From contig CANLWN010000004.1 of assembly GCA_947494825.1 (NCBI GenBank), positions 248,001 to 312,000 on the forward strand: a stretch of 64,000 nt of DNA. The letters are read 5' to 3'. Position numbers and translations under genes: made by a program. The notes below the pieces were generated by a model. The model saw only the letters and a list, made by a program, of their open reading frames with translations, was not told the origin of the DNA and made no database searches. Positions 21,022 to 53,500 of the stretch are shown piece by piece. This DNA comes from an uncultured Flavobacteriaceae bacterium (GTDB lineage: Bacteria; Bacteroidota; Bacteroidia; Flavobacteriales; Flavobacteriaceae). Within the stretch, counting starts at the first letter, position 1. Each line of letters begins with the position of its first letter.

Positions 21022-21849
21022 TTAACCGTTTTTCAACACATATATGTGGGAGGAGTATTCACCGCTGCGCCATGCGCTAAGGTTGGACCGCAAGCCTACC
21101 CAAAATGCCTTCAGCAAATTTTGTTTCCCCGTTTTATATTTTTCGGAAAGCAAGGAAACATAAAAAGCATCATAGCGCATAGGTAAGGTGCACACCAGCT
21201 GCATCCCATGCTCCTCGAATATTTTTTGGATGGCCGTTTTGGAAAAATGCCACAGATGTCTTGGTACGTCATAAGCAGCCCAAAAGTTTTTGTAATATCG
21301 AGCATCGTAGGATTTAAAGTTCGGCACCGCAACGATCAGGGTGCCGTTCTGTGCAAGGACCTTTTTCATTTGGACTATTTGCTCATCCAAATTGGGAAGG
21401 TGCTCCAAGACATGCCAAAGCGTAATCAGTTCATATTCCTGCTTGGGCAAAAGGTGTAGCTCTGGCACCAAGGTCAACCCCTTCGCAGCTGCCAATTGTA
21501 CCGCTTTTTGGTTGGGTTCCACTCCAGACACCTCGTAGTTCCCACGCTTTGCAGCCAGCAAAAAATCGCCCGTGCCCGCACCAATGTCCAAGAGGCTTTT
21601 TTTTGATTGCGTATAGGTGTCCAACAGTTTTACCTTCTTGCGAAGGCTTCGCTTCTTTATCTGCTGATAAATACGATCCACAAAACTTTTATTGGCGTCG
21701 GTATGCGATATATAGGCCTCGCTTTCGTAATACTTTTTCAGGTCGCTGGGCTGTGGCTTCGTAATGAGCATATCCAACTCGGTATCGTGCACCAATTCAA
21801 ACCCTTCGCCGGAAATGGAATGATCCTTAGTCTTTAAAAACAGTTTCAT
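21022..21849 (-). CDS. class I SAM-dependent methyltransferase
   Basis: A 275-residue protein of the Methyltransf_23 type. The SAM-binding motif I is LLDIGAGTGDFLLAA (about 75-89), followed by the acidic loop GVEPNQ. LITLWHVLEHLPNLDEQI and VLAQNGTLIVAVPN are the typical middle motifs. The N-terminal ~70 residues lack a zinc-type Cys motif. Close relatives often modify lipids, sugars or quinones; the substrate is unknown. Its start overlaps the end of the upstream lipoprotein gene by 23 bp, so they are probably co-translated. Confidence 0.85.
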   Translation of the reverse strand: MKLFLKTKDHSISGEGFELVHDTELDMLITKPQPSDLKKYYESEAYISHTDANKSFVDRIYQQIKKRSLRKKVKLLDTYTQSKKSLLDIGAGTGDFLLAAKRGNYEVSGVEPNQKAVQLAAAKGLTLVPELHLLPKQEYELITLWHVLEHLPNLDEQIVQMKKVLAQNGTLIVAVPNFKSYDARYYKNFWAAYDVPRHLWHFSKTAIQKIFEEHGMQLVCTLPMRYDAFYVSLLSEKYKTGKQNLLKAFWVGLRSNLSAWRSGEYSSHIYVLKNG

Positions 21850-22369
21850 GATAGTTGTGGGTGGACAAATACTCTTCCTTTAAAGTCCGAAGATAGTTCA
21901 AAACCAAACTTCTTGAAAGGGAATTTTCATGTAAACAGTCGTTCTCATCATCGCTGTACACCTCAATAGCCAAGTACCAATTCCCCTCCCTAGTGCTGTG
22001 CACCTCTTCCAGCAGGGGATCCATCTCGGCCTGATCCAACAGGCCGTCAATCATAATCGGGATAAGATTAATGGTCTTGGTGGGTATTTCCACCTCATAA
22101 AAGGAAAAGAAAAACTGTTTGCCCTTTATGCGAAAAGGGACATCGTCATACACTTGCTGATGTTCAAGAGCGAATTTTGTGTTGACGTAATCGTAAAAGG
22201 CATTGGCCTCCTTAGGGTCTTCAAAGATGAACATTTGACGTTTGGGCAAACTTCTTTTGAACCGTTTTCCCTGGGTGATTTTGTGATCCTTGATCTTTGG
22301 TGCTATCCTTAGTGGAATGCAGGAACCAAAAAGGACAAAGGACAATAAAAGGAGTAGTGTTTTTTTCAT
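21827..22369 (-). CDS. putative lipoprotein of unknown function
   Basis: A 180-residue exported protein. It starts MKKTLLLLLSFVLFGSCIP, a clear lipoprotein signal with a lipobox Cys. The mature part begins basic (KIKDHKITQGKRFKRSLPK) and has alternating hydrophobic strands, with PFRIKGKQFFFSFYEVEIPT in the middle. I do not recognise the family. The start was set at the ATG giving this signal, 10 codons inside the longest frame. It sits between mnmG and the methyltransferase, overlapping the latter by 23 bp. Confidence 0.65.
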   Translation of the reverse strand: MKKTLLLLLSFVLFGSCIPLRIAPKIKDHKITQGKRFKRSLPKRQMFIFEDPKEANAFYDYVNTKFALEHQQVYDDVPFRIKGKQFFFSFYEVEIPTKTINLIPIMIDGLLDQAEMDPLLEEVHSTREGNWYLAIEVYSDDENDCLHENSLSRSLVLNYLRTLKEEYLSTHNYHETVFKD

Positions 22370-22445
22370 TTTGGCTTGGTGTTTCCCTAGGCTCAACACC
22401 TATCAAAAACCAAACCAAAGCCCTTCTTTTTGGGAATGTACCCTC

Positions 22446-22465
22446 AATGTTCCACGTGGAACATT
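22446..22465. promoter_or_regulatory. parS-like ParB-binding palindrome, downstream of mnmG
   Basis: A perfect 20-bp palindrome, AATGTTCCACGTGGAACATT, whose 16-bp core TGTTCCACGTGGAACA fits the chromosomal parS pattern TGTTnCACGTGnAACA. It lies 3 bp beyond the mnmG stop codon in the 99-bp gap before the lipoprotein gene. A second copy of the core is found 1.9 kb away at 24349. Confidence 0.8.
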
Positions 22466-22468
22466 CTG

Positions 22469-24337
22469 CTATCTGCCCATAAAAACCAATAAAATGCTGA
22501 TGTCGCTAGGGGATACCCCGCTAATTCTGGAAGCCTGGGATATCGTTACCGGACGTATGGCGCTAAGCTTTTCCCGTGCTTCAAAGGAGAGGGATTTAAG
22601 CTTGGAGTAATCAAAATCAGCGGGGATCTTGATGTTTTCCAACCGCTGCAGTTTGTCCGCATTGTTTTTTTCCTTTTCAATATAGCCCGCATACTTGACC
22701 TGTATCTCCGCCTGTTCCATCACTTCTCTGTCCAAATCCTTTTCCGACACAAAACTGGACACCTTTTCCAATTGCATCATATGATCCATGGTTACCTTGG
22801 GCCTTGAAAAAACCTTGAACATTTTGTCGGATTGTTTTACCGGGGAAGAAGAAACACTTTCCAAGATCGGATTGATGTCTTCCGGCAGTACGCTGGTGTC
22901 CCTAAAAAATTTTACAAAAACGTCGGATTTGCGACGTTTCTCCTCCATACGCTTAAGACGCTCTTCCCTGGCCAAACCGATTTCATGACTTTTCGGGGTA
23001 AGCCGTAGGTCTGCATTATCCTGCCGCAATAAGGTACGGTATTCCGCTCTGGAGGTAAACATTCTATAGGGTTCTTCCGTTCCTTTCGTAATCAGGTCGT
23101 CAATAAGCACCCCTATATAGGCCTCGTCCCTGCGGAGCACAAAGGGGTCCTTTTCATTAATCTTAAGGTGTGCATTGATGCCGGACATAAGCCCCTGCGA
23201 GGCTGCTTCCTCGTAACCTGTGGTGCCATTAATCTGTCCTGCAAAATACAGGTTTTCCACCAGCTTGGTCTCCAAAGTGTGCCTTAGCTGCGTTGGAGGA
23301 AAGTAGTCATATTCTATCGCATAGCCAGGTCGGAAAAATTTAACCTTCTCAAAGCCTTTAACGGACTTCAACGCCTTGTACTGTACATCTTCCGGCAAGG
23401 AAGTGGAAAACCCATTGACATAAACCTCAACCGTATGCCACCCTTCCGGCTCTACAAAAATCTGGTGGCTGTCCTTATCCGCAAAACGATTGATCTTATC
23501 CTCAATGGATGGGCAGTAACGCGGGCCAATGCTCTTAATCCGTCCATTGAACATGGGTGAGCGGTCAAAGCCTTCGCGTAACAGCTCATGTACCGTCGCA
23601 CTGGTATGGGTCATATGGCAGTCCCGTTGCGCTTTTAAAACAGAGGTCTCCAAATACGAAAACTTCTCCGGATTGGTATCACCGGGTTGGGGGATCATCT
23701 TGGTATAGTCAAGTGACCGCCCATCTACCCTGGGCGGTGTACCGGTTTTCATTCGGCCGCTATCAAACCCAAAATCCACCAATTGTTCCGTTATTCCCGT
23801 GGCCGCCTTTTCCCCTGCGCGTCCGCCACCGAACTGCTTTTCCCCAATATGGATGAGTCCATTTAAAAATGTTCCGTTTGTCAGGACCACGGCCTTGGCC
23901 CTAACATCAATTCCAAGGGACGTTCTTACGCCCACAACCCGTGTGCCCTCCACTAATAAACCGGACACCATCTCCTGGTAAAAATCCACATTCGGAGTGC
24001 CCTCCAATGCCAGTCTCCATTCCTCTGCAAAGCGCATACGGTCGTTCTGGGCCCTTGGACTCCACATGGCGGGACCCTTGGATTTGTTCAACATTTTAAA
24101 CTGGATAGCCGAATGGTCTGTAATAATGCCGCTATAACCCCCTAGTGCATCTATCTCACGTACAATTTGTCCTTTTGCAATTCCGCCCATAGCTGGGTTG
24201 CATGACATTTGCCCTATGGTCTGCAAATTCATGGTAATCAACAGGGTCTTGGACCCCATATTGGCAGCCGCGGCCGCGGCTTCCGCACCAGCATGCCCCC
24301 CGCCTACTACAATAATATCGTACGCCTTTTCAAACAT
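22469..24337 (-). CDS. mnmG: tRNA uridine-5-carboxymethylaminomethyl modification enzyme, FAD subunit
   Basis: A 622-residue FAD protein that, with MnmE, places carboxymethylaminomethyl groups on the wobble uridine of several tRNAs. The dinucleotide fold VVGGGHAGAEAA is at the N-terminus. CNPAMGGIAKGQIVREIDA, GTFLNGLIHIG, LKTGTPPR-type (MKTGTPPRVDGRS) and FAGQINGTTGYEEAA are canonical. The start was taken at MFEKAYD, 11 codons inside the longest frame, because the earlier codons overlap the parS-like site and the ybeY end. Also known as gidA. parS-like palindromes sit immediately at both ends. Confidence 0.96.
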   Translation of the reverse strand: MFEKAYDIIVVGGGHAGAEAAAAAANMGSKTLLITMNLQTIGQMSCNPAMGGIAKGQIVREIDALGGYSGIITDHSAIQFKMLNKSKGPAMWSPRAQNDRMRFAEEWRLALEGTPNVDFYQEMVSGLLVEGTRVVGVRTSLGIDVRAKAVVLTNGTFLNGLIHIGEKQFGGGRAGEKAATGITEQLVDFGFDSGRMKTGTPPRVDGRSLDYTKMIPQPGDTNPEKFSYLETSVLKAQRDCHMTHTSATVHELLREGFDRSPMFNGRIKSIGPRYCPSIEDKINRFADKDSHQIFVEPEGWHTVEVYVNGFSTSLPEDVQYKALKSVKGFEKVKFFRPGYAIEYDYFPPTQLRHTLETKLVENLYFAGQINGTTGYEEAASQGLMSGINAHLKINEKDPFVLRRDEAYIGVLIDDLITKGTEEPYRMFTSRAEYRTLLRQDNADLRLTPKSHEIGLAREERLKRMEEKRRKSDVFVKFFRDTSVLPEDINPILESVSSSPVKQSDKMFKVFSRPKVTMDHMMQLEKVSSFVSEKDLDREVMEQAEIQVKYAGYIEKEKNNADKLQRLENIKIPADFDYSKLKSLSFEAREKLSAIRPVTISQASRISGVSPSDISILLVFMGR

Positions 24338-24344
24338 AATCTTT

Positions 24345-24764
24345 CTAATGTTCCACGTGGAACAATGCAATCATTTCGTTTTCCTTGTTCCGCATCAAGG
24401 TCTTATCCTCATCGGTCTTATCCCTATACCCCATCAAATGAAGCACCCCATGCACCATGACCCGTAACACTTCCTCTCGAAAGGAAACACCATAAGTTGC
24501 TGCGTTTTCCCTTAAGCGGTCTGTGGAAATAAAGATGTCCCCAGACAGTTTCTCGCCCTCCGTGTAATCAAAGGTGATAATATCGGTAAAGGTGTCGTGG
24601 TCCAGGTATTTCTTATTCATCTCCAACATAGATTCATCCGAACAAAAAATATAGGTCAGCGGTCCAAGATCCCGTGTCTCCGCCTTAATTACCCTAGTAA
24701 TCCAATCGGTAAAGTGTTTTTCCCCTTCCAGCTTAAAATCCGTCTGGTAATGATACTCAATCAT
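24345..24764 (-). CDS. ybeY: endoribonuclease YbeY (rRNA maturation factor)
   Basis: A 139-residue metal-dependent RNase involved in 16S rRNA 3' maturation and ribosome quality control. It has the family segment ITFDYTEGEKLSGDIFIS and the metal site HGVLHLMGYRD. The first two His are present but the third ligand position of the usual HGxLHLxGyDH motif is Asp, which I recall as common in Bacteroidota. The last codons, FHVEH-stop, are written with the parS-like palindrome. It overlaps the DUF4175-like gene by 8 bp and precedes mnmG by 7 bp. Confidence 0.93.
   Translation of the reverse strand: MIEYHYQTDFKLEGEKHFTDWITRVIKAETRDLGPLTYIFCSDESMLEMNKKYLDHDTFTDIITFDYTEGEKLSGDIFISTDRLRENAATYGVSFREEVLRVMVHGVLHLMGYRDKTDEDKTLMRNKENEMIALFHVEH
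24349..24364. promoter_or_regulatory. parS-like ParB-binding palindrome, inside the ybeY 3' end
   Basis: A perfect 16-bp palindrome TGTTCCACGTGGAACA, identical to the core at 22450. It encodes the C-terminal residues of YbeY and lies 12 bp upstream of the chosen mnmG ATG. With the other copy it brackets mnmG. Confidence 0.8.
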
Positions 24765-27700
24765 TTTTCCTAAAATAGTTCTTCACCTTGTTCTGGAAAA
24801 TTTGCTGCAAAGGTAGTGCTTGCCTGCTTAAAATCTCTATTTCATTGCGATAATTCTCAAGCAGCTCCGGTTTCGTGGTCACTGGGTTTTGAAAGGTATT
24901 CTTGTTGGTGTTGCTCTCCCGTTCCGGCTTTTTGCCTTGCTTTAGGGCGGCATTTTCCAACTTCAGAAGCTCATATTGAATCCGATTTACCTTGTTCAAC
25001 GCCCGTTCGGTAAAACCATTCTCGAGCAAGTCGCGCTCAAAATCCTCCATCTGTTGAATAAGTCGCTGCGCCAATTGCTTATCCCTTGTACGTATCATAT
25101 CCTCAAGCTGCTGCTCCAATTGCTCCCGCAAGCGTTGCTGCTCCTTGTAAATTTCATAAATCTCCTTCAGCTCTTGTTCGCTCTTACCATCTCCTCCGGA
25201 CTGGGTGCCCTGCTGCTTTCCTTCCTGGCCATCACCGCTTTCCCCATTTTCACCCTGGCCCTGACCTTTTTTATCACCTTCCCCCTTCTTGTCACCCTCT
25301 CCTTCACCCGATTCCCCGGATCCTTTGGAACTGCCAGATTTTCCCCTTTCTCCCATCTTCTCCTGTAGCTCTCCCTGGCCCTTAATAATATCCGGAAGTT
25401 GAAATCCCTCGGAACTATTGCCCGATCCCGCGCCCGGCTTCATACTCTGCTGCATATTGTCCAAAACATTTGCCAAAAAGTCGGCCAAGCTATTGGAAGC
25501 CGTTAATATGCGTTGTTGGTAAGCCACTCCCTGATACATTTGGCGTTCTGCCATACTTTCCAGAGCCTTATCCGTGTTATAGTAGACCTCCGTAATCTGT
25601 TCGTTTACAAACTCAGCCAATTCCGCCCGGCGCAACGACAACGCAAACAAACTGTCATCCACATGCTCAAAAAGCTCCCTCAACTGCTGTTGCTGGCGCA
25701 CGCTACTTGAAAAATGCGCAATGTTGGTATCCGCACCTTCCAAACTATCGTACAGGGCCTCTTGTTTAAAAGAAAAAGTCACCAAGTTGTCCAAAATTTG
25801 CCGTAGCATCTCGGCGTCCTCGGTAATACTTGATCCCCCTCCGCCGGAAGCGGACTGCTGCAACTGTTCGCTCATCTCCTTCATCTTCTCGGCAGCCGAT
25901 TTCTGCTTTTGGGCCGCTTTGTTGGCATCATTCTTCTTTTCTCCTTCCGCCTGGGGGCTCTCCCCTTTCTCTTGTTTCCCCAACTCCTCCAATGCCTCCT
26001 GTTGGTCCTTTTTGATACCCTCCTGTTTGGCCTTATCGAAATCAATATTTAAGGGCTTCTTTAAATTCTTGTTGTCCTTTTTCAATTCCTCCATCTCCTT
26101 TGCAAGTTCCTCGAATGCCTTATTGAGATCCGACTGCTCCTTTTTCTCACTACCGTCACGCTCCTTTTCCGCAGCGGCCTGTTGCTTTTCCGCCAAGCGT
26201 TCCAAATCTCTGGCCAATTGTGCAGTCTTTTCGGTAACATAGTACCTTTTGGTGAGCTCCAATAACTGCTCCAGACCTCGCTCACTATTCTGCTGTTTCT
26301 TGCCCAGTTCCTCCAAACGCTTAGTAAGCTCCTCCTTGTCTATTTTATCCGCAATCTTGTTTAACTCCTCCAAGAGCTTCTCATTTTTTTGTGCCTCCAA
26401 TTCCTGTCGTTCCAATCGCTCTTTCATTAACTCGCTTAGCCGATCGTCCTTCTTTAAGTTCTCTTTGAGCTGTTTGCTGAACTTTTGCATCAGATTTTCT
26501 TGCCGCTGCTGTTTCTGAAGAAAATCCTTTATCTTATTTTGGTCGTTGAAGTTCAAAAGGTTCTTTTCACGTTGTTCCTTATTAATCTGCTTTAAGGTCT
26601 CCTTTTGTTCCTTAAACTTCTCCAAAGACCTATCCATATTGGATATGACCGATTGTTGAAAATCTAACTGCTTGTTTTTCAGTTGGTTACTATCCAAAAC
26701 TGCAAAATTAAAGGTGCGGGTACGCGCCGTTTTGCCCTTGTGCAAGGCATCATTATCCGTTGCTTGGAAATAAAAACTGTAGGCCCTGCCCGCCTCCAGA
26801 TCGAGGCCTGATGGGAATGTATAGTAGAATTGATCTACGTTGGTACCCGGTCTGCCAAGTTCTAAAACCTGTGTGCTCTTTGGGTCTTGGTCCGGATAAC
26901 ACACCAAGGAAATGGAGCGTATCTTATAATCATCGGAAGCTTCCCCGACATAATAGGAAATGTTGGGATTTAAGGAATCCAAAACCTGGGAAGCCCTAAT
27001 AAGCGGATAGGCGTCCTTAACCACATTAAAATTATAATCCAGCGTTTCATAATCCCTCACATTTTCATTGGAAGTGGTCAATTGATAGGGAAAATCCGCA
27101 AAGATCCGTTTTGACAGGGTGAACTCGTTCCCCTGTTTTTCAAATTGTAAGGTGGTGTCCCGGATCGTTAACCCAATCCTGTCCGTATGCCGTCCGGCTA
27201 TGGACCAGCTTACCCGGGTGCCCTCAGGAAAAGTCGCGTTCCCCGTGCTTTTAATGGTCTGTGTGGGTTTGTTGGTGTAGTCCGGATAGTCCAAGATTAA
27301 CTTAAAGTCTTGGATAGAGGGTGTTTTCAAGACGTTTAACGTATAGGTCCCGGATTTGATCCCATTAGCGGAAAAATAAAATTCCACGCCTTGTAAGGGG
27401 GGCGAAAAGACATATTGATATGCTCCGTTCTCTTCCTGCAAAAACAACTCTTTGCCATTAACGACCATGGATATGCCCTCAGGTTTTACCTCCCCTACCG
27501 TGGTGACCCTGGCCGTATAGGTCTCGCTCTCCAGCACATCCAAGTTCTCCGACAGGAAATTAAAACGGAAGGGTGCGGGCGGCTCATAGGCCAGATCGTA
27601 ATTTACCACCCGGTCATAAGAACCAAAAAAGGAACTAAGGTTTCCAGAAAGCCAGATAGCGGCAAAAATTAAGAGGGGTATTGCCAAAAACTTAAGGTAT

Positions 27701-36445: not shown

Positions 36446-38557
36446 ATGTTAAAGAGAAGTTCCATATACATCGTATTATTTATGCTGTCACTGATTACCG
36501 CCAGTGCTCAGGAAGACAGCCCTTTCGTCGCCTATGATGTGCCTGCTCAGAACTTGCTGAAATTCAACAGGTTCTTGATCAACCCCACCTTTTCAACGGT
36601 TAGGGAGAACAACTCTTACATTAATTTGTTTCATAGAAACCAATCGGTATCTTTTGATGACAACAACCAGACCTACTTCCTAAGCTACAGCGGTCGTATC
36701 AACGACCGCACCGGCTTGGGACTTAGCTTATACACACAACGCGAAGGGATCATCACCAATTTTGGTGTCCTTGCCAATTATGCTTACGGCATAAAACTAA
36801 GCGACAAAAGCAACTTTACCTTTGGGGCAAATATTTCCTATTACAATAGTGGCTTTGACGAGAGTAGGGCCAACCCCGTGCAGGTAGACCCTTTGTTAAA
36901 TGGGTTTCAAGACAGTAATTTACTGTCCTTTCAGCCCGGGTTTAACCTTTCCTATGACAAATTTGATTTCGGTCTTTTAGCGGAAAACTTGTTTGACTAC
37001 AACTTAAAGACCAGTGAATCGGTTACCAGTTTCAATGAAAAGACCTTTTCCGGGCACTTGCAATACACCTACGACTTTGAAAATGGTGACGGTGTGCTGG
37101 AAGGCGGACGCTTAATGCCTTTGGCGCGTGTTCGCAAAGTGGGCGAAGGGGATATCACCCTTGGAGGCAGCCTTATTTTTGACCTCCCAAAAATTGGGTG
37201 GTTACAGGCCGGGTATGACGATTTTTATGGCGCCTCTGCAGGTCTTGGTTTTAATCTAAACCGTAAACTGTCCCTGGGCTACACCATGGAAAAAGGCCTT
37301 TCGAATAGCCTGGACAATTTTGGGCTGACCCATGAAATTTCCTTTGCCTATTCCTTTACTCCCAATCTTACCGAAGATCGGGTCATGTTGGAGGACAATC
37401 CGGATGAGGTAGTGGAAAATAATGCCGATGAAAACAGCAATGGATCCTTGGCATCCAAGGACGAGGAAATTGAAAAATTAAAACAGCGCCTACAGGAAAA
37501 TGACGCTATTCTGGCCGAACTGATGTTCCGTCAGGACTCTTTGGAGGCCAACCGACAAAAGGACTTGGAGCGACGCTTCGAAATGGTGATGCGCATGGTC
37601 CGTTCAGAAACGGACGGTGATCGTCCGGACCTGGAGGAAAAGGCCAAACAGATCTATTTCCTTAACAATGACCAAAGCGGAGCCAATTCAGAACTTGCAC
37701 AAACGGAAACATCTGTGGATGAGGCCTCAACCCATCACACAGCAGGTTCCAATGGAATTAAAACAAACGGTATAAAAAGAAAGGATGTCCTTGTCGCCAA
37801 CCAAGCGCCCACCAAGGTCTACCCTACAGCAAAAAAAGACCGTACAAGCACCCAAAACAAAACAAAACAAGCCCAGCGCAAACAGGTTAAAAGCCAAAAA
37901 TTCAGAGATCTGGATGGAGTAACCGATGGCTATTATGTAGTGGCCAATGTGTATCGGGGAGAGCACTATTTAAACAAATTTATAGATGGGCTCAACGAAC
38001 AGGGGCTGCAAGCCGATTATATTGACAATCCCAAGAACGGTTTAAAATACGTATACCTTGACCGTTATGACACCTGGCAGGAAGCCTTACAGGCCCATAG
38101 ATCCAAGCTAAACGGCAGCTACGATGGCGACCTGTGGATCATGAATGTGCAAAACAGATATTCCAATGAGGCCTATGCCGAGAATGTGAACAAGATCAAG
38201 GAGAAATCATCCAAATACGGCACGGACGTCTTGCAAAAGAATGTCATCGTAAAAGACAAGGTGGCTTCCCAAAACCCTTCAGCCCGGGATTACAAAATAA
38301 ATGGTGTTGGCAGTGGCTATTATATCATAGCCAATGTATTTGCCAGCCCAAAAAACGCCAACCGATTCGTAAAATTATTGAATTCCAGAGGGCTCAGTGC
38401 CAGTTATTTTATCAACCCAAAAAACAACTGGCGCTATGTCTATTTAAAGAAACACGGCTCTTGGAACAACGCACTCATATCTTACTACTCCCAACTGAAC
38501 GACTCGTATAATGACAAAATGTGGATTATGCGGGTAACACCAAACCTACTGACCTAA
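36446..38557 (+). CDS. sprD: SprD-like protein: PorP/SprF barrel plus coiled coil and two SPOR-like domains
   Basis: 703 residues. The signal peptide ends SLITASAQ (about 22). Residues 25-310 form a PorP/SprF-type outer-membrane barrel (FNRFLINPTFSTVRENNSY onward, ending GLTHEISFAYSF). A coiled coil follows at 332-388, then a Lys/Gln/Thr-rich linker. Two SPOR-like domains (487-568 and 612-703) begin GVTDGYYVVANV and GVGSGYYIIANV, with shared NPKNGLKYVYL/NPKNNWRYVYL cores. SPOR domains bind denuded peptidoglycan, so this may tie an outer-membrane barrel to the wall; that is inference. Its stop and the sprB-like start share a base (TAATG), implying coupling. Named by synteny with the sprCDBF operon. 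Confidence 0.75.
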   Translation: MLKRSSIYIVLFMLSLITASAQEDSPFVAYDVPAQNLLKFNRFLINPTFSTVRENNSYINLFHRNQSVSFDDNNQTYFLSYSGRINDRTGLGLSLYTQREGIITNFGVLANYAYGIKLSDKSNFTFGANISYYNSGFDESRANPVQVDPLLNGFQDSNLLSFQPGFNLSYDKFDFGLLAENLFDYNLKTSESVTSFNEKTFSGHLQYTYDFENGDGVLEGGRLMPLARVRKVGEGDITLGGSLIFDLPKIGWLQAGYDDFYGASAGLGFNLNRKLSLGYTMEKGLSNSLDNFGLTHEISFAYSFTPNLTEDRVMLEDNPDEVVENNADENSNGSLASKDEEIEKLKQRLQENDAILAELMFRQDSLEANRQKDLERRFEMVMRMVRSETDGDRPDLEEKAKQIYFLNNDQSGANSELAQTETSVDEASTHHTAGSNGIKTNGIKRKDVLVANQAPTKVYPTAKKDRTSTQNKTKQAQRKQVKSQKFRDLDGVTDGYYVVANVYRGEHYLNKFIDGLNEQGLQADYIDNPKNGLKYVYLDRYDTWQEALQAHRSKLNGSYDGDLWIMNVQNRYSNEAYAENVNKIKEKSSKYGTDVLQKNVIVKDKVASQNPSARDYKINGVGSGYYIIANVFASPKNANRFVKLLNSRGLSASYFINPKNNWRYVYLKKHGSWNNALISYYSQLNDSYNDKMWIMRVTPNLLT

Positions 38558-41500
38558 TGAAACCAAATCTTAGTAAAGTACTCCTACTGATCTGTATCGG
38601 TTTATTTTCCTATGCAGGCTTTTCGCAAGAATACAACACCTTTGATGTTAGATACCAGGATAACATCAAGGGCGATCTTACTTTTATAGCCAATAATATT
38701 GTCAACCGTGACGATGGAACAGCCACCGGGGAGCCGGAGGACGCCTATGATCTGACAGGGAATTCATCCACGTATAACGACTGGTTGGACATGCAATATA
38801 TAGATGTGGACAGTGACCCAACCACCTTCAGTTCCAGTACGGCCACTTTAACCTACCCACAAGCAGATTGTAATCTCATCCGTTACGCAGGATTGTACTG
38901 GTCCGCGACCTATCCGAGCGCAAACGCCGGAGATCCTGTAGGAACTGGCCGGCAAAGCGATTTTAACCAAGTAAAATTTATGGTTCCAGGAGGAACCTAT
39001 GTGGACGTCGTTGCCGATGAAATTCTTTTCGATGGCTTTACAAATGCAAGCACCCAGCAAAATAGCCCATACGCCTGTTACGCAGATGTTACGGCTTTGG
39101 TTACACCTCTTACGAATCCCGAAGGAGACTACACAGTTGCCAATGTACGGTCTGTTGTAGGCTCACTTTCTCCGGGTGGTGGGGCCGCAGGCGGATGGAC
39201 CCTGATCATCGTTTATGAAAACCCCAACCTTACCGGTAAACTTATTACCACCTTTGATGGTTTTGCCAGGGTACGAAGTGCAAACCCAAGTGTGGACATC
39301 AACTATTCTGGGTTTAACACCATCCCTTCGGGGCCCGTAAATGCCAACATAGGTGTGGCCGCCCTAGAGGGCGACAATAGAATTACCGGTGATGGAATGC
39401 GCATTAGAGCCAATAGCAGTGGTTCGTTTACTACCATTAGCAACACCACCAATCCATCAAACAATTTTTTTAACAGTAATATTACCTTGGATGGCGTGGT
39501 GACCACCAATAGAACCCCCAACAGTATTAACACCCTGGGGTATGACACGGATATCTTCTTACTGAGCAACCCGGCAAACTCTGTCATACCCAATGATGAA
39601 ACTGCAGCGACTTTCAGATTTACATCTAGTGGAGATCAGTACTACCCTTTTTTCAATTCCTTTAACGTTGAAATTATTGAGCCCAACATTGTTTTGGAGA
39701 AAAAGGTAGAGGATATTGCCGGAAATGATATTACCGGCTTAGGGGTTAACTTAGGGCAACAGTTGGATTATGTACTTTCTTTCCAGAATATTGGAAACGA
39801 TGATGGAACCAACTACACCATTCGGGATGTACTGCCCATTAATGTTACCTTGGACGAACTTAATATTACACTACCTGCTGGGGTAACCTATACCTATGAC
39901 GCACCCACACGTGCGGTGGTATTTACCATCCCCGACAACCTGATAGAGGAGGGGGATCCAGCTTCAGCAATACGTATGCGGGTGCAAGTGGCCTCAAATT
40001 GTTTTGACTTTGTGGATGCTTGTACGGACCTAATCGAAAACCTGGCCTATTCTACCTATGAAGGTGTTATAAACGACAATCAAATTACGGACGACCCCAG
40101 TGTGTCGGACTTTGACAATTGTGGGTTTGTTACGCCCGGGGCCACCAATTTTTTGTTGGACGACCTTTCTACCTGTGGTTTTGACCGAACCGTAGAGCTC
40201 TGTGGGGACACTGCAGTCCTGGATGCAGGGGACAATTTTGATAATTATATCTGGTACCGTGATGAAAATGGGAACAACCTCATAGATGCTGGGGACACCG
40301 TCCTTAGCGATGGAGATCCGGATGGTGACCCTAGCACGCTGCTGGTTTCTGAAATAGGCACCTATATTGTGGACAAGCAGGTGGCCGACCCCTGTAAAGG
40401 GTTCCAAGAAATAATCAACTTAGTATTTTTCGGTACCACACAAACCAATCCGATCACCGCCCTGATCAATGATACCACCAATACCGTAGAGGGCGAGGTT
40501 GTAATCTGCCCCAATGATGGGGACGAACTGCCTAAGGTTTTCCTTTGCGGTCTCAATGACACCGAACTCATTTCGATCAATATTCCAGATGCGACCAGCA
40601 TAGACTGGGAACAACTGGATGAAGCTAGTTGTACTGCATCTGTAGCCGATTGTGCCAATAAGAACGCTTCTTGTACCTGGAACAGTGTGGGTACGGGCAA
40701 CGATTTTCTGGCCTCCGATGCCGGGGAATATAGAGTGGTCATCAACTACCTTAACGGTTGTTTTACCCGCTTCTATTTCAACATCTTTAAAAATCCGCTA
40801 GACCCGCAATACAACAGCACCGACCTTATCTGTACCACCCCTGGGAACATAACGGTCACCAATATGCCGGTAGATTATGAGTATCAACTCTTGGATGCCA
40901 CAGATAGTTCTGTTTTGGTGCCTTATAGTGCCAACAACGGCCCCAGTTTTACCATCAACAGTAACGGGGCCTACCGGGTTGAAATGCGCCAGCAAGGTGT
41001 TGTGGACGGTTGTGTCTTTGTACTGGACAATATCGGTATTTTAACGCGGGATTTTCAAGTGGATGTCATCACTCAAGATGCAGATTGTAATGGTTTGGGC
41101 GAGATTTCCATCTCGGCTTTAAACGTGGAGCCCCAGTACTACTATGAAATATCGCAGGGAGGTACTTCAGTGGATACTTTTGGACCTTCTAGTGACAATA
41201 ACTATACCTTTCAAAATCTCAATCCTGGGGTATATGATGTCCTATTGACAACGGACGATGGCTGTTCCTATACCGAACAGGTGACCATCAATGACAACAG
41301 CGATCTGGACCTTCAGGCCGTAATATCCCAACACATCACTTGTAGGGAGGGTAACATTCAAATGCAATCCACAGGCGGCCAAACGCCCCACAACTATGCC
41401 ATTTGGTCCTTTGTGGACGATGGTGGTACTACCGTTATTTCATACCCCACCGTAGGTGATATTCCGGCCTCGGCCTATCAGACCAGTGTTATTTTTGACG

Positions 41501-44500
41501 TTTTGACCCCTGGTGATTACACTTTTGTGGTGGTAGACCGAAACAATTGTTCTGCCATTTCCAATACAGTGACCATTGTATTGGAGCCTTCTGTGGATTA
41601 TACCGTTGTAACAACGGATGAAAGTTGTTTGGGGGCATCCGATGGAACGGTGTCCTACAACATCGTTACCTCCAACGGTTATAGCGTGGAGTACACCCTG
41701 ACCTATCCTGACACCTCCACCGCCACCAACAGCTCCGGAACCTTTACCGGTTTGCCCCAAGGCAACTATTCCGTAGTGCTGACACAGCGAAAGGGAAGTA
41801 GCGTTTGTGATTTTACGGACACTTTTACCATTGGTGGCCCCGCCGACGCAGTGACAGGTACCGCAGCATTGATACAGGATTATACCTGTTTACAAAATGG
41901 AATTATAGAAGCGCAGGGTGTTACGGGCGGAACTCCTCCCTATGAATACAGCATTGATGGAGTAAACTTTGTCAGCGGTGCAGGGGCGGAAACCTTTTCC
42001 AACCTTACCGATGGCACATACAATATTACTATTAGGGACGATAACGGGTGTACCTTTGTTACCAATGCCATAACCCTAGATCCCTTAAACCCGCCGACCG
42101 ACCTAACTTTTGCGGCCACCGTGCCCAATTGTCCCGCACTCACCTCGGATGTAACCGTAAGTGTAATAGGCGGCAACACCCCTTTTATTTATGAAATCAC
42201 GGCCCCAGCGGCCAGTGCGGTCAACAACGGCAACGATCCGGTCTTTACCGGTTTGGCGCCAGGAACCTATACCTATCAGGTCACCGATGCCAAGGGGTGT
42301 ACCTATAGCGAGGACCATACCATCGCTCCGGTAAGCCCGATCAATGTGGTAGGGCAGTTGATAAGCAATATCACTTGTTTAACCGATACGGATGGGGAGG
42401 TGCTCTTCACAATTTCCGGTTTTAATACCAGCTATGATTACAGTGTTACGGGACCAGCGGCCTTTAATGGTGTCGCTGAAACCAGTACTACCATTCCTTT
42501 GCCCAATTTGGATGATGGCACCTATACGATTACCGTAACCGACAATGATACCAACTGCACGGATACGGCTAACGTAACCGTGGCCGCCCCAAGTGCGGTC
42601 TTAACCTTGAGTGCCAGCGAAATACACCCTACCTGTGTTTCCGATGGCAGCGTGACCTTGACTTCTACCGGTGGGTGGGGCGGCAATGATTTTAGCCTTA
42701 CCTATCCCGATGGTGTTACTGTGGTAAACAACACCACCGGCGCTTTTGCCGGACTTACACAGACCGGCACCTACAACGCCACTGTAACGGATGCCAATGG
42801 TTGCGTGGTAGCTACCAACTTTGATTTGGATCCCGCTGTCGCGCCGGTTTTACAGATCGTACCCAACGACACTTGTTATGATGCTGTGGTAGGACTTGCC
42901 TTGACCGCAAACGTAACTTCTGGGGGCGACGGCAATTATGAATACAGTCTTAACGGGGGAGTCTTTGGGGCTACCAACGTTTTTACTGGCTTAGCACCAG
43001 GAACGCACAGTATTGAAGTTCGTGATGGCAAGGATTGTACCGATACGGCGACCATCACGATAGATCCAGAACTTACTTTGGTTGCCACGGCCCCGAACAT
43101 CACGGCCTGTGGCACGGATACCGATATCACCATAACCGCCGCGGGCGGCGACGGTTCCTACGTCTACGCCGTTGTGGCCGACGGGGTGGCGCCCGTGCCC
43201 GGCGATTTTGCCGTCACCAACCCCATCACCGTCACCGGTGCCGGGGACTATGACGTCTACGTAAGGGACAACAGCGGAGCGGCAGGCTTCTGCCAGGCCG
43301 CCTTCGACATTGCCATCGTACAGGACGCGCCCATTGCCATTACGCCATCGGCCGTGCCCGTGATATGCTTCGGGGAATCCAACGGGAGCATCAACATCGC
43401 AGTGGCCGGCGGCAACGCGCCCTACCAGTACAGTATAGACAACGGCGCCAACTACCAGCTCACCGGGGACTTCATCAACCTCCCCGCGGGCACCTATCCC
43501 ATACGCGTGCGCGACGCCAACAACTGTGAGCAGACCACGTCCATTGACGTCCTCGAACCGGCACAGCTCGCCGCCGAGGCCGTACAGACACAGGCATATA
43601 CCTGCCTACAGCTGGGACAGATCACCGTGGGAAGCGTAACGCCAACATCAGGGGGGTCCGGCGACTACCAGTACCGCATCAACGGAAGCGCATGGAGCGC
43701 CATTACCACAGGGGGGACCGTCTTCACCGACCTGGCCGACGGCACCTATTCCATAGAGGTCCGGGACGCCAATGCCACTTCCTGTACCCTGGTACTGCCC
43801 GACGTGGTCATCGCGCCCCTGCCCACAGAGCCCGTGCCCGCCTCTTCCGTGACCTACAACTGTGACGGCAGCGGGAACATCACCATATTGCCCAACGATC
43901 CAACCTATACCTATAGCATCGACGCCGGCGCGCCACAGGCATCCAACGTCTTCAACAACATCGCCGTGGGAAGCCATACCGTGACCATAGACTACGGAAG
44001 CGACTGTACCGTGGACACCACCGTGGTGGTAGATCCCGGGAACGCCTTCGGCGCGAACATCGACGCCTTTACCGATATCAGCTGTAACGGACTGGCAGAC
44101 GGCGATATCACCATATCGGCCGAAAACTTCGACGGGGCCACAGGCTTCGAGTACAACATCAACGGAGGGGGCTTCACCACATCACTGGTATCCCCCGTGA
44201 CCCTGTCGGGGCTCACCGCACAGGCATACACCATAATCGTAAGGGACCTTAGGGACACGGCCAACTGTTCCGTGACCCTGAACCAGGCCCTCACCCAGCC
44301 AACGCCCATCGTGGCCGCGGCATCCATCACCGACCCCTTTACCTGTAACAACACGGGGGCCACCATTACCGCAAGCGCAAGCGGCGGGACCCCCGCTTAC
44401 CAGTACCAACTGGAGGACAATGTAGGGGGCGTGATCACCGCATACCAGGCCAGTGCCATCTTCAACAATGTCGGCGCCGGGGACTATATCATCAGGGCAA

Positions 44501-47500
44501 GGGACAACAACCTGTGCTCCGACCCCATTGACACGGCCATAACCGTTGCCGCACCGAGCAACCCCACCTTTACCGTTACCGAAACGGCATGCTACAGCGG
44601 CGCCAACGACGCCACCATACAGGTCGACGTCACATCACTGCCCGGCAACGGAGGCTTCCAGTTCAGCATCAACAGCGGACCCTGGATGACACCAACGCCC
44701 GCAACCGCAACAACATACACCTTCGCCAACCTGGCCAACGGAACCTATACCATTGACGTACAGGACCAGTTCGGATGCCCGGCAACGCAGCAGTCCGTGA
44801 CCATTGAACCTAATCTGACCATTACCGCCACGGCCCCGAACATCACGGCCTGTGGCACGGATACCGATATCACCATAACCGCCGCGGGCGGCGACGGTTC
44901 CTACGTCTACGCCGTTGTGGCCGACGGGGTGGCGCCCGTGCCCGGCGATTTTGCCGTCACCAACCCCATCACCGTCACCGGTGCCGGGGACTATGACGTC
45001 TACGTAAGGGACAACAGCGGAGCGGCAGGCTTCTGCCAGGCCGCCTTCGACATTGCCATCGTACAGGACGCGCCCATTGCCATTACGCCATCGGCCGTGC
45101 CCGTGATATGCTTCGGGGAATCCAACGGGAGCATCAACATCGCAGTGGCCGGCGGCAACGCGCCCTACCAGTACAGTATAGACAACGGCGCCAACTACCA
45201 GCTCACCGGGGACTTCATCAACCTCCCCGCGGGCACCTATCCCATACGCGTGCGCGACGCCAACAACTGTGAGCAGACCACGTCCATTGACGTCCTCGAA
45301 CCGGCACAGCTCGCCGCCGAGGCCGTACAGACACAGGCATATACCTGCCTACAGCTGGGACAGATCACCGTGGGAAGCGTAACGCCAACATCAGGGGGGT
45401 CCGGCGACTACCAGTACCGCATCAACGGAAGCGCATGGAGCGCCATTACCACAGGGGGGACCGTCTTCACCGACCTGGCCGACGGCACCTATTCCATAGA
45501 GGTCCGGGACGCCAATGCCACTTCCTGTACCCTGGTACTGCCCGACGTGGTCATCGCGCCCCTGCCCACAGAGCCCGTGCCCGCCTCTTCCGTGACCTAC
45601 AACTGTGACGGCAGCGGGAACATCACCATATTGCCCAACGATCCAACCTATACCTATAGCATCGACGCCGGCGCGCCACAGGCATCCAACGTCTTCAACA
45701 ACATCGCCGTGGGAAGCCATACCGTGACCATAGACTACGGAAGCGACTGTACCGTGGACACCACCGTGGTGGTAGATCCCGGGAACGCCTTCGGCGCGAA
45801 CATCGACGCCTTTACCGATATCAGCTGTAACGGACTGGCAGACGGCGATATCACCATATCGGCCGAAAACTTCGACGGGGCCACAGGCTTCGAGTACAAC
45901 ATCAACGGAGGGGGCTTCACCACATCACTGGTATCCCCCGTGACCCTGTCGGGGCTCACCGCACAGGCATACACCATAATCGTAAGGGACCTTAGGGACA
46001 CGGCCAACTGTTCCGTGACCCTGAACCAGGCCCTCACCCAGCCAACGCCCATCGTGGCCGCGGCATCCATCACCGACCCCTTTACCTGTAACAACACGGG
46101 GGCCACCATTACCGCAAGCGCAAGCGGCGGGACCCCCGCTTACCAGTACCAACTGGAGGACAATGTAGGGGGCGTGATCACCGCATACCAGGCCAGTGCC
46201 ATCTTCAACAATGTCGGCGCCGGGGACTATATCATCAGGGCAAGGGACAACAACCTGTGCTCCGACCCCATTGACACGGCCATAACCGTTGCCGCACCGA
46301 GCAACCCCACCTTTACCGTTACCGAAACGGCATGCTACAGCGGCGCCAACGACGCCACCATACAGGTCGACGTCACATCACTGCCCGGCAACGGAGGCTT
46401 CCAGTTCAGCATCAACAGCGGACCCTGGATGACACCAACGCCCGCAACCGCAACAACATACACCTTCGCCAACCTGGCCAACGGAACCTATACCATTGAC
46501 GTACAGGACCAGTTCGGATGCCCGGCAACGCAACAGTCCGTGACCATTAACCCACAACTTACGGCCAACGCCCTATTAAATACGGACCTGACCTGTTTGG
46601 CCAATGCGTCGGTAACCATAACGCCCAGCGGAGGTTCGGGAAGCTACTCCTACGAGTGGTCCAACGATGCAGGAGTTAATTATTTCACAACCAACTTTGT
46701 TGCCAATGTATTTAGCACACCTACAGCTGGATCCTATATCTTTAGGGTAACCGATACCACGGCACCTACGGCCTGTACCGTAGTGACCAATACCATCGTT
46801 GTTAACCCCGCCGATACCCCTGTCATCACTTCCATTACGCCAACCCATGTCCTTTGTAACGGAGACAGCACGGGCGCCTTGGATGTGGTCATAGATACGT
46901 CTATAGGAAGTCCACCGTACGTCATTGAGGTAATAGAAACCGTTTCGGCTACCAACTATGGTACACAGACTACGGGCTTGCCTGCAGGGGACTACGAAGT
47001 GACCATAACAGATGATAAAGGATGTACCTCTGCGGTATTTCCAGTCTCCATCAACCAGCCTGATGCCATCACCTATGGCATTAATTTGGTGCCCATAACC
47101 TGTAATCCGGCCACCGGAACCGACCCCGGGTCGATTACCGTCGAGAATTTGCTCGGAGGAACAGCGGAATATACCTATTATCTTACTGGAAATAACGGTC
47201 ATACAGATAACTATGTAACCACCGCAGGTGGGGAAGACCACACCTTTGCCATCTTGGAATTCGGCATCTACGAAGTGGATGTGGTAGATGCCAATGGATG
47301 TTCTGTAAGAACCACCAACATTATTGCATCTCCCCCGGATGATCTGGATATAGACGTTTCGGCGATAACGGCAGATTGCGCAACTGGAGGAACAGCTGTA
47401 GTAACCGTAACAACCGCCATTTTGGGAACAAACTATGAATTTGGAATTTTGGATACTTTCGCGGTGCCCTACGCTTCCACCTATTTCCCGCCAGATGTTG

Positions 47501-50500
47501 CGGGTGGACCTACCCATACTTTTACGGGCCTTACCCCTGGTATTACCTATACGTTCGTGGTGCATGATATCACCACCAATTGTTATTACTTTGAAACGGC
47601 GGCCGCTCCGATCAATACCCTTTCGAACATGACCGCTACCTTGGACGCTGTGGCCAATATTACCTGTACCGGGGCTGCCAACGGAAATGTTTCGTTTACC
47701 TTTGACAATTACGACGCTGGAGCCACGGATGTTACCTATGAAATCTTTAATGCCCAGTCCAATCTTACCACCGGTTTTACCGGAACGGCATCTGTTAATC
47801 CCCCTGCAGGAGGGGTTAGCATATCCAATTTTGGCACCTTGCCACAAGGCGTATATTACATCCTGTTGACCGAGGTTGGAGGCACACATAATGGCTGTTC
47901 CATAAGCACGGCCGATTTTACCATAGACGAATCTGCCAACCTCTTAACGGTAACAGCGGCCTCGCCTACCAATGACAATTGTAACCTGAATGCCGGTGTA
48001 ATTACCGCTACCGCGCAATTTGGTACCGCTCCTTATGAATTTCAGTATTTGTTGAGCACTGATCCAGCACCTACTGCGGCTTCCGCTGGGTGGGTAAGCG
48101 CTACTACATCCAACGTGGAATCCGGTGATTACATCGTGTATGTAAAAGATGCGAACAATTGTATCCAAAATGACGCCATTACGGTAAATCTAGACCCAAG
48201 TCCGGAAATCTCCTTGTCTATCGTGGACGAGTGTGCGGCCGAAGGAACTTTTGAGGTACTGGTTACCTTGGATGTGGCCGGAATTACCCCTTATCAACTA
48301 CGTGTCAATGGAGGTGCCTACCAGAGTATTACCTTCAACGTGAGTAACGAATATACGGTAAGTGGACTCAGTTCAGGAGCCGCGCAAACCATTGAAATTA
48401 GAGATCTCAACGGATGTGGGGAAACAGAAAATTTCACCATACATCCTCCGTTACAGTTCAATGCTACCTTGACCACACTCTTGGATTGTGAGGTGGCCAC
48501 GGCCAATAATGCAGAGATAACAATCGATGTAATTGCCGGTTCCGGCACTTATGAATACTCCGTTGCAGGACCCGTAAACCAAGTGCAAACAGCGCTGCCA
48601 TCAGATCCCTTTGTTTGGACCTTGGCGAGCCTGCCCGGTACCTACACCGTCTCCGTCTATGATGCGAGTACTTCGGTGCCCTATTGTCTAGGGTCCATTG
48701 ATGTGGTGGTCCCGGCAGCGGTTACGCCCATTTTCACCGAAACACATATAGACCTAAGCTGTAATGGTGCCAATGACGGATCCATAAGCCTTTTCCAGAC
48801 AGAAAATGGTATCAATCCGTTGACCTATACGATCTCACCGGTAGCAGGCACCTTCAATGCGGCTACCAATACCTTTGAAAATTTACCGCCGAACACCTAT
48901 ACGGTTACGGCGACAGGCACCAATAGCTGTACCACGGACATCGCAGGAATTGTTATTGCGGAACCCAACATCATCAATATTCCAGTGGTCACCGTCACCG
49001 AATTCGCCTGTGCCACGGGCAACAACGTGGACAGTGCCATCATCTCCGTGGACGGTACCGCCGTCACGGGGGGGAGCGGCTCCTATGTCCTATACGAGTT
49101 CATCGACGACCAGGGCACCCCCGCCACCGGAGACGACGTCGTGGTGCAGTCAGGGCCCAATACCTCATATGCCGAGACCGACCTCCTGGGGGGGACCTAC
49201 ATCATCAACGTATACGACGATATGGGGTGCGTGGGCACCACTACGGCGACCATACTGCCCTATGACCAACTGTTGACGGCTTCGGCCGCCATCACAGCGG
49301 CCATTAGCTGTACCCCGGGGACCGACGGGGAGATCACCGTCACCGTGACCTCCACCAACAGCGACCCCACACGCTTCGAGTACAGTATCGACAACGGGGC
49401 CAATTACCAGGCATCCAACGTCTTTGCCGGACTCGGCGTAGGGACCCATAACTTCCTCGTAAGGCACGTGGACACCGGGTGTACCATAAGCACTTCCGAG
49501 ACCATCACCGACCCCAATACCTTTACCATTGACGTGGTGAAGCTCAGCGACGTGATCTGCTTCGGGACCAATACCGGCGCCGTTACCTTCGAACTCGTGG
49601 ACGCCACCTATCCCGGAGGCTTCGACTGGGAGATATTCGATACCAACGGGACACCGGCCAACCTGGCGGACGATACCTCAGTGGCCACCGGTAACGAAGC
49701 CACCAACGGGCCAACGGCCACCATCAACCTGGCCGCCGGAAGCTATTACGTGACCATAACACAGACCAACCACCCCTTCTGCCCCAATACCGAGGCCTTC
49801 ACCATCAACGGGCCCTCGGCGGCGATCACCGCAAACACCCAGGTGACACCCGTGACCTGCGCCCTGAACGACGGCGTAATAGAGGTCATAGACGTACTCG
49901 GGGGATGGGGAGGATATACCTATTTCGTGGACCTGGCATCCAACCCGGCCCCAACGTACCCGGCCAGCTACCAGGCTTCGCCCAGCTTCTCAGCCCTTGC
50001 GGGCGGACTGGCACCTGGGACCGACTACCAGGTATGGGTGGCCGATATGAACGGGTGCGAGTTCCAGCTCCCCGACGTGACCCTGGTCGACCCGACACCG
50101 ATCTCGGCAAGCCTGCAGATCAACCAGGAGAACTGTACCAACCTCGAGGGAGAGATCGAAGTGATCGGAACCACCGGCGGACAGGGAAGCAACTATACCT
50201 ACCAGCTCGTAAGGGGGGGCATCGATACCGGAGCGCCCCAGACAACCACCGTGTTCCCAGGCCTAGGAGCGGGAAGCTACCAGGTGCGCGTCACCGACCA
50301 GTGGTCGTGTAGCTTTACGACACCGGCGACTCTGCTCTATGATGAAATTGTCCCCTTGGCAACTATCGTAAAACCCATAGACTGTACCGTAACTCCGGGC
50401 GGTGAAATAACAATTACACAGACCGGGGGCTCCGGAAGCTTCGACTATTTGGTCACCTTCCCCGACCTGGTTACCACTATTGCCAATACCACCGGTGTAT

Positions 50501-53500
50501 TTACCGGACTGACCCAAGTGGGCACCTATAGTTTTACCATTACGGATCAAGCCGTTGGACATGCGTGTAGTACCACGATTGATCAAGAACTTGTGGATGC
50601 GGTCTTACCGATTCTTTCCATAAGCGCCTTTACCGATGTCACCTGTAACGGGGCCGATGACGGAACCATAACCGTCGCCGCCGTAGATAATGGCGTTGGG
50701 CCGTATACTTTTGAAATCATATCCGGGCCTGGAAGTAGCGCGGCTTTCCCGATAGCTCCCACAGCGACCACCGCTACAACTGCAAGTTTTAGTGGATTGG
50801 AAGGTGTTGTCGGTGCCGGGATTACCTACACCATTCGTGCAACAGCAACCAACGCTTGTACCACGGATATAGCACAAGTTATTGTACAGCCCGATCCTAT
50901 TGCAAATGTGAATGCTACCGTCACCGAATTCGCCTGTGCCACGGGCAACAACGTGGACAGTGCCATCATCTCCGTGGACGGTACCGCCGTCACGGGGGGG
51001 AGCGGCTCCTATGTCCTATACGAGTTCATCGACGACCAGGGCACCCCCGCCACCGGAGACGACGTCGTGGTGCAGTCAGGGCCCAATACCTCATATGCCG
51101 AGACCGACCTCCTGGGGGGGACCTACATCATCAACGTATACGACGATATGGGGTGCGTGGGCACCACTACGGCGACCATACTGCCCTATGACCAACTGTT
51201 GACGGCTTCGGCCGCCATCACAGCGGCCATTAGCTGTACCCCGGGGACCGACGGGGAGATCACCGTCACCGTGACCTCCACCAACAGCGACCCCACACGC
51301 TTCGAGTACAGTATCGACAACGGGGCCAATTACCAGGCATCCAACGTCTTTGCCGGACTCGGCGTAGGGACCCATAACTTCCTCGTAAGGCACGTGGACA
51401 CCGGGTGTACCATAAGCACTTCCGAGACCATCACCGACCCCAATACCTTTACCATTGACGTGGTGAAGCTCAGCGACGTGATCTGCTTCGGGACCAATAC
51501 CGGCGCCGTTACCTTCGAACTCGTGGACGCCACCTATCCCGGAGGCTTCGACTGGGAGATATTCGATACCAACGGGACACCGGCCAACCTGGCGGACGAT
51601 ACCTCAGTGGCCACCGGTAACGAAGCCACCAACGGGCCAACGGCCACCATCAACCTGGCCGCCGGAAGCTATTACGTGACCATAACACAGACCAACCACC
51701 CCTTCTGCCCCAATACCGAGGCCTTCACCATCAACGGGCCCTCGGCGGCGATCACCGCAAACACCCAGGTGACACCCGTGACCTGCGCCCTGAACGACGG
51801 CGTAATAGAGGTCATAGACGTACTCGGGGGATGGGGAGGATATACCTATTTCGTGGACCTGGCATCCAACCCGGCCCCAACGTACCCGGCCAGCTACCAG
51901 GCTTCGCCCAGCTTCTCAGCCCTTGCGGGCGGACTGGCACCTGGGACCGACTACCAGGTATGGGTGGCCGATATGAACGGGTGCGAGTTCCAGCTCCCCG
52001 ACGTGACCCTGGTCGACCCGACACCGATCTCGGCAAGCCTGCAGATCAACCAGGAGAACTGTACCAACCTCGAGGGAGAGATCGAAGTGATCGGAACCAC
52101 CGGCGGACAGGGAAGCAACTATACCTACCAGCTCGTAAGGGGGGGCATCGATACCGGAGCGCCCCAGACAACCACCGTGTTCCCAGGCCTAGGAGCGGGA
52201 AGCTACCAGGTGCGCGTCACCGACCAGTGGTCGTGTAGCTTTACGACACCGGCGACTCTGCTCTATGATGAAATTGTCCCCTTGGCAACTATCGTAAAAC
52301 CCATAGACTGTACCGTAACTCCGGGCGGTGAGATTACTGTCGCTGCAAGCGGAGGATCCGCCAACCTTGATTTCACCATCACCTTCCCTGATCTGGTCAC
52401 CACGGTTTCCAACGCAACCGGCGTGTTTACCGGACTTACCCAGGTGGGAACCTATAGTTTTGTGGTTACCGATCTTGATACGGCAAGTCCCGTATGTACA
52501 AAAACAATCACACAGGTATTGGATGCACCAACACCGGTTACCTTTGATCCACATACTATTGTCAACGTTTCTTGTAACGGTCTTAGCGATGGGGAGATTA
52601 CTGTTAATCTAGCTCCTGCCGCTTTAGGCGTAAACGACAACCCGGTCTATACCTATAACCTGTACGATGCCCTGGGCACCACCTTATTGGCCGGTCCGCA
52701 GACGGATCCAACATTTAGTGGATTATCCGCTGCCTTCTACCAAGTAGAGGCCATCTCTAGCAGAAGTTGTTCATTGCGGGAAACCGTGGAAGTCACGGAA
52801 CCTACACAACTGTTGATCGATGCATCGGCTACGGCCTTTGACTGTAATCCGGACAACAGTGTGAACACATCGACTATAACTGTCAATATTTTGGATGGCG
52901 CAACGACGCCTGGAGTGCCTTCCGGAACCGGACCTTATCTGTACAGTATCGATAATGTAAACTTCCAGGTGGCCAATACCTTTGAAATCATAGATGATGG
53001 AACCGCCCAAAATATCACGGTATACGTCACCGATGCGAACAATTGCCCAGCAAGTTTTGCCGTGCCTACGATTGAGCCTTTGAACACCTTCATGGCTACC
53101 GTTTCCCAAGATGTGGCGATAAGCTGTACGGGACCCGAGGAAGTAACGATTACCGTTGCCGACAATGGCAATCCGGCCAACAGCTATACCTATGAACTCT
53201 TGCCGCTTGGGAATCCAAATGGAACCGAAGTCCCAACGGCCTTGAATACCACGACGGAATTTGACCTTACCGCTGTGGGAAGCTATACCTTCCGGGTTAC
53301 CGATACAACAACGGGTTGCTATGTGGATACAGCACCTTATGTGATTGCTCCCTATGACCTTATTGACGTCGTAGCAACGGCGACCACGCCGGTGACCTGT
53401 TTTGGCGATACCAATGGTGCGCTGGAAATAACTGTAACGGATTATGCCGGTGCGTATACCTATGAAGTGTTTACCGATGCTGGTGTAACTACAGGAATCA

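Follow-up and report, generated by a model that had tools for sequence, protein, structure and literature searches.

A predicted chromosomal centromere at mnmG in an uncultured Flavobacteriaceae bacterium, with parS sites at the same gene in most sampled Bacteroidota

Chromosomal parS sites were reportedly first surveyed by Livny et al. in 2007. The usual second job of such a site is the loading of SMC; recruitment of SMC-ScpAB is common and is not strictly defining. The sites of ParABS systems have been reviewed (PMC7333895) and, in the accessible part of that review, they are 16-bp TGTTnCACGTGnAACA palindromes, present in few copies near the origin of genomes that encode the cognate ParA and ParB. 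In gut bacteria, including Bacteroides caecimuris and Muribaculum intestinale, parS sites were found mostly clustered at the origins seen by Hi-C, the position of the origin did not systematically match that of dnaA, and no homologue of a known condensin was identified in these two species, according to the accessible part of PMC10197239. In the part of PMC2099444 at hand, gidA (mnmG) is among the listed origin genes. The locus described here is like the reviewed sites in its palindrome, its few copies, its position near the origin and its cognate ParA and ParB, and like the gut species in having parS near the origin, dnaA away from it in relatives and no SMC or ScpB found. It differs from the reviewed sites, as far as that part of PMC7333895 goes, in its location at mnmG, with one site reaching into the end of ybeY, far from parB in five relatives, and in a genome without SMC above the cut-off and without ScpB. 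The accessible text of PMC10197239 makes no mention of mnmG, and the present case is a member of the Flavobacteriaceae with a two-sided bracket around this gene. Compared with the old origin gene cluster (PMC2099444, same part), gidA is again linked to the origin and gidB still follows it in three deep lineages; unlike that cluster, the present one has kept parS next to gidA close to the origin given by skew, with parB and dnaA located elsewhere.

The sequence TGTTCCACGTGGAACA occurs in two exact copies, at positions 22448-22463 and 24349-24364 of the window, by which we mean the whole 64-kb stretch of DNA that was analysed. The first copy is the core of a 20-bp palindrome, AATGTTCCACGTGGAACATT (22446-22465), and in the second the palindrome is limited to 16 bp; neither is assigned a strand. 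Between them, on the minus strand, lies the tRNA-modification gene mnmG (gidA; 22469-24337, with its ATG start at 24337; TIGR00136, 847 bits). Site 1 is found 5 bp beyond the mnmG stop codon, and site 2 is found 11 bp ahead of its start codon, within the last codons of ybeY (24345-24764, minus strand; TIGR00043, 108 bits), so that a minus-strand reading of site 2 gives the YbeY end ...LFHVEH-stop. The initial annotation, which had described identical palindromes after the stop and before the start of mnmG, the first extended to 20 bp, was right on each of these points. It had also proposed that the palindromes are parS sites, and this identity is supported by the exact match of both copies to the chromosomal parS consensus, TGTTnCACGTGnAACA. 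On the other side of mnmG, a methyltransferase gene (21022-21849, minus strand; PF13489) is a usual neighbour in Flavobacteriales, where the site pair lies between ybeY and the methyltransferase neighbourhood; we give it for context only. As a terminator, site 1 was rejected, since no terminator-like site was found in 22000-24900. Further along the window (38521-55887) there is one open frame of 5,788 amino acids, with a GC content of up to 0.61 compared with about 0.45 in most of the window. It adjoins CHU_C/Ig and PorP/SprF genes, and its product is probably a giant type IX-secreted surface protein.

With up to two mismatches allowed, the two copies are the only matches in the window, and 100 shuffled sequences gave a mean of 0.01 matches with none reaching 2. 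Across the 32 contigs of the genome (4,538,061 bases; 99.97% complete), the same threshold returned the same two copies of TGTTCCACGTGGAACA only, and one match to the reversed pattern. Simple arithmetic puts the expected number of copies of an exact 16-mer in 4.5 Mb at about 0.001. The genome-wide search that had been suggested as a check therefore found no scatter of the 16-mer, the pair being its sole two copies.

The genome contains one match to the ParB model (TIGR00180, 4.9e-49), on contig C2. The protein has the ParB_N, HTH_ParB and ParB_C domains (Pfam), and parA lies directly upstream of its gene, giving one parA-parB operon. The initial annotation had held that an absence of parAB would speak against parS; the cognate operon is present in the same genome, on a contig other than that of the sites. 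The palindromes are almost certainly ParB loading sites for the segregation of copied chromosomes and, judged from sequence, the pair is very probably the centromere of this chromosome, formed by two parS sites that flank mnmG near the origin and would load ParB. As known ParABS biology would have it, ParB from the distant parAB operon would bind each 16-bp site and close as a CTP-dependent clamp. Such clamps would then slide onto the DNA around mnmG, and ParA would draw apart the ParB-coated origin regions of the sister chromosomes.

The position of the replication origin was approached through GC skew. The pair is located at 270-272 kb of contig C4, where the skew, sampled in 20-kb stretches, is negative in 10 of 10 stretches up to 320 kb, about zero at 320-340 kb and positive in four of six from 360 kb. 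After strand correction, the best break falls between the midpoints 310 and 330 kb (R2 of 0.82 vs 0.42 without a break), at a distance of about 50 kb from the pair. Five single-chromosome relatives (G119, G195, G199, G113 and G062) were also analyzed, with 20 skew stretches each. The raw-skew origin interval includes the pair in four of the five: G119, G195, G199 (Polaribacter sp. BM10) and G113. In G062 the raw-skew origin is about 0.56 Mb from its site. With third-position skew the pair is inside the interval in two of the five only (G199 and G113), and in the other three the pair falls outside, at a distance of about 0.15 Mb (G119), 0.7 Mb (G195) and 0.56 Mb (G062); the R2 values for an origin at parS and for the best position are 0.81 and 0.83, 0.62 and 0.66, and 0.54 and 0.73 in these three genomes, respectively. 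The earlier claim that the window is near the origin thus stands for contig C4 and, by raw skew, for four of the five relatives, while G062 speaks against it and third-position skew agrees with it in the two genomes named.

In all five relatives parB and dnaA are 0.99-2.12 Mb away from the pair, parB by 0.99-1.46 Mb (26-41% of the chromosome) and dnaA by 1.01-2.12 Mb (34-37%). Raw skew is better described by an origin at parS than by one at dnaA (higher R2) in four of the four genomes in which this was computable, G199 being the one in which it was not. On the basis of this distance and these R2 values dnaA was rejected as an origin marker. A search for clusters of DnaA boxes (TTATNCACA, the E. 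coli-type box) found at most one box per kb in the sampled stretches, and oriC was not located by it.

Within the family, the exact 16-mer is present in 136 of 199 genomes, in one to three copies, and its reversed control gave 0 matches in all 199. In 62 of the other 63 genomes TGTTNCACGTGNAACA is found at up to one mismatch, in a search where chance matches occur, as the reversed control also has one to three matches in part of the genomes. Among the matches listed, mnmG is within 1.5 kb of the exact site in 27 of 30 fetched loci; one of the remaining three has ybeY only and two have the neighbouring methyltransferase only. Weaker sites are at mnmG in 25 of 30 fetched loci, again among the matches listed, and the five misses (L057, L061, L071, L079 and L082) were judged on the fetched locus alone and not on the other sites of the genome.

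The bracket itself was followed in 80 named mnmG loci from GTDB genomes, which are the best 80 of at least 591 relatives. At up to two mismatches, 73 of them have sites on both sides of the gene, four on the upstream side only, one on the downstream side only and two (L143 and L163) have none near mnmG; by side, this amounts to 77 loci upstream and 74 downstream, and the reversed pattern gave two matches in 1.03 Mb. The conservation of the pair around mnmG in other Flavobacteriaceae, which the initial annotation had put forward for checking, is therefore borne out. In these best 80 of at least 591 relatives the median gap to mnmG is 15 bp for the nearest upstream site and 8 bp for the downstream one, and a methyltransferase homologue is present in 74 of the 80 loci. 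The same variant is found on both sides in 28 of the 73 two-sided loci, compared with a mean of 10.7 and a largest value of 19 after shuffling. The contrast in information content computed for these loci is too high at the 16 positions, as a pattern had been used to pick the sites. The upstream site overlaps the coding end of ybeY in 44 of the 80, by an automatic reading that is doubtful for at least L159, and half of these printed ends (22 of 44) are FHVEQ, FHVEH or FHVER. In five loci (L108, L112, L115, L120 and L121) the 5' side of mnmG carries an array of 4 to 12 parS-like sites, with neighbouring sites mostly separated by tens of bases up to about 130 bp. Four of these are from Flavobacterium and L115 is labelled as a Limnohabitans MAG.

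Conservation extends beyond the Flavobacteriaceae, the scope of the initial annotation, through a phylum sample of 60 genomes from 24 families, all 60 of which have mnmG. A site is found at mnmG in 49 of the 60 (28 of 30 at up to two mismatches and 21 of 30 by exact match), and such genomes are found in 21 of the 24 families. In the 30 loci that were fetched, sites were searched in the 1.5-kb flanks, where the reversed control gave 0 matches in 143 kb. Sorted by gene orientation, eight of these loci have sites on both sides, five on the 5' side only, 14 on the 3' side only and three none; in one of these three, L265, the automatic gene edge missed two sites lying within 600 bp of the gene. The 30 unfetched genomes were searched for exact sites only, which are absent from nine of them; all 33 sites of the other 21 are within 160 bp of mnmG or inside the gene, and nine genomes have the bracket on both sides. 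Families f3 and f5 (one genome each) have no exact site, and in family f15 (two of two genomes) the exact sites are located away from mnmG. The close exact pairs of f15 (G212:C2:70233-70294 and G230:C56:77314-77379) are the clearest exception. One exact site, G215:C1:1086925-1086940, is within the mnmG coding sequence (1086557-1088413). Most sampled members of the phylum thus have sites at mnmG though parB is far off.

A class sample gave exact sites in 60 of 99 genomes and none in 39. Among the matches listed, 28 loci were new, some of them from genomes already within the phylum sample, and 25 of the 28 have mnmG within 1.5 kb; two of the other three have ybeY at the contig end and one (L311) is near an apparent recF. 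In another genome (G278), which has 12 exact parS sites in total, L306 carries seven exact copies at 1501-2122, as a 99-bp tandem array that starts directly after ybeY and runs to the contig end.

The gene order around mnmG is different in three deeper lineages. In L263 (family f9), L253 (f17) and L246 (f20), rsmG (gidB; identified by TIGR00138 or GidB) directly follows mnmG and the sites start 3-6 bp after mnmG, which is the mnmG-rsmG junction. In L263 mnmE precedes mnmG and an N-acetylmuramic acid etherase gene follows rsmG, in L253 a YqgE-family gene precedes mnmG and mfd follows rsmG, and in L246 a WYL-domain gene follows rsmG. The L246 rsmG scores 63.5, below the NCBIfam cut-off of 99.5, and is above that of Pfam. 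The gene upstream of mnmG in L274 was named by neither NCBIfam nor Pfam.

The sequence bound by Noc differs from parS, which counts against the idea that a Noc-like paralogue, and not the segregation ParB, binds here. This idea could draw on the NCBIfam models, since the one with the lowest E-value for our ParB is nucleoid_noc; yet its score of 230.5 bits is below the cut-off of 315, whereas parB_part, with 166.4 bits, is above its cut-off of 58.45, and no second protein in the genome matches the ParB model. The residues point the same way. According to the accessible part of PMC7383237, R173 and G201 are specific for parS and Noc has Q173 and R201. The ParB helix-turn-helix (GKKRSTITN...MGHGR) was aligned with M. 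xanthus ParB and B. subtilis Spo0J, and the numbering of PMC7383237 was transferred by motif, not from the Caulobacter sequence. It keeps R173 and G201, together with most of the shared-contact residues named in that part of the paper (Q162, G170, K171, N178 and R204), and has K at position 172, where S is named; the Noc-type set of Q173, K179, K184 and R201 is not found. A Noc-type site was rejected on the residues and the nucleoid_noc score, and we see next to no chance for it. The palindromes might instead be operators or RNA hairpins that control the expression of ybeY and mnmG and are unrelated to segregation. Such a role would suit a site placed just before the mnmG start and another just past its stop, and sites that are at mnmG whether its neighbour is ybeY or rsmG. 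However, the letters are those of a ParB site in a genome whose ParB has parS-type residues, the region has no terminator-like site, and 19 of the 30 fetched phylum loci have sites on one side only. A hairpin would also lose its pairing by one-half changes such as TGTTCCACGTGAAACA, yet these are common: this variant by itself accounts for 10 of 73 sites downstream and 5 of 76 upstream in the best 80 of at least 591 relatives. We therefore regard expression control as very improbable.

With the pair read as ParB-loading sites of a centromere, another question is why they are found at mnmG. Most likely they descend from an old gidA/gidB/parAB/dnaA cluster (PMC2099444, the part at hand). We lean towards a history in which mnmG, rsmG, parA, parB and dnaA were once one origin cluster; in Bacteroidota parA-parB and dnaA would have left it and parS would have remained at mnmG, which in Flavobacteriales has lost rsmG as its neighbour as well. 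Such a relic is favoured because the site is at the mnmG-rsmG junction in the three deep lineages. Another explanation is that parS is linked to mnmG by selection: ParB clamps loaded at the edges of the gene would spread over it and adjust how it is transcribed, or its transcription would shape the ParB zone. The spread of the site at mnmG over most sampled families is what selection could give, and so is its persistence next to different neighbours, which are ybeY and the methyltransferase in Flavobacteriales and mnmE, rsmG or the YqgE-family gene deeper in the phylum. The excess of same-variant pairs over shuffling in the best 80 of at least 591 relatives can be counted here too, although shared ancestry also gives such pairs. 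But these observations are also accounted for by a relic of the old cluster, the junction speaks for the relic, and the side and number of the sites vary; a link by selection seems unlikely to us. We are equally doubtful that mnmG is a fixed centromere seat in Bacteroidota through functional coupling, where edge-loaded ParB would enclose the gene and tie tRNA modification (or mnmG transcription) to origin segregation.

The usual partner of parS was also searched for. SMC (TIGR02168) is above the cut-off in none of eight Flavobacteriales genomes, i.e. the present one and seven others, with best matches below 30 bits, compared with eight of nine other phylum genomes; the ninth (G226) has two large pieces below the cut-off. 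ScpB (TIGR00281) is in none of the eight Flavobacteriales genomes and in all nine more distant phylum members. There is thus an apparent loss of the main condensin in Flavobacteriales, in a search that covered SMC and ScpB. As SMC and ScpB were not found, parS cannot load SMC in the known way here, and these eight genomes do not show the recruitment of SMC-ScpAB that is common in ParABS systems. The initial annotation had mentioned neither this absence, nor the overlap of the pair with ybeY, nor its separation from parAB and dnaA in relatives.

The type of site described here is already known, and its attachment to mnmG was not found in the literature searched: among the matches listed no paper ties parS to mnmG in Bacteroidota, and the tables of Livny et al. 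(2007) may list such sites. What our analysis offers is a predicted centromere for a phylum with little segregation work. It also names one gene, mnmG, with which parS stayed in most sampled families, parB and dnaA being elsewhere. Since dnaA is about one third of the chromosome away from the parS pair in the five relatives, taking dnaA as position 1 may misplace the origin. The site pair is probably a better origin marker than dnaA. In gidA, the gene name stands for glucose-inhibited division, and there is an old link between this gene, the origin and division. If the coupling were true, it would give this link a physical basis, in a lineage that apparently segregates without SMC. In Flavobacteriales ParB-parS seems to act without SMC-ScpAB, and the ParA-driven part of chromosome segregation could therefore be studied there alone.
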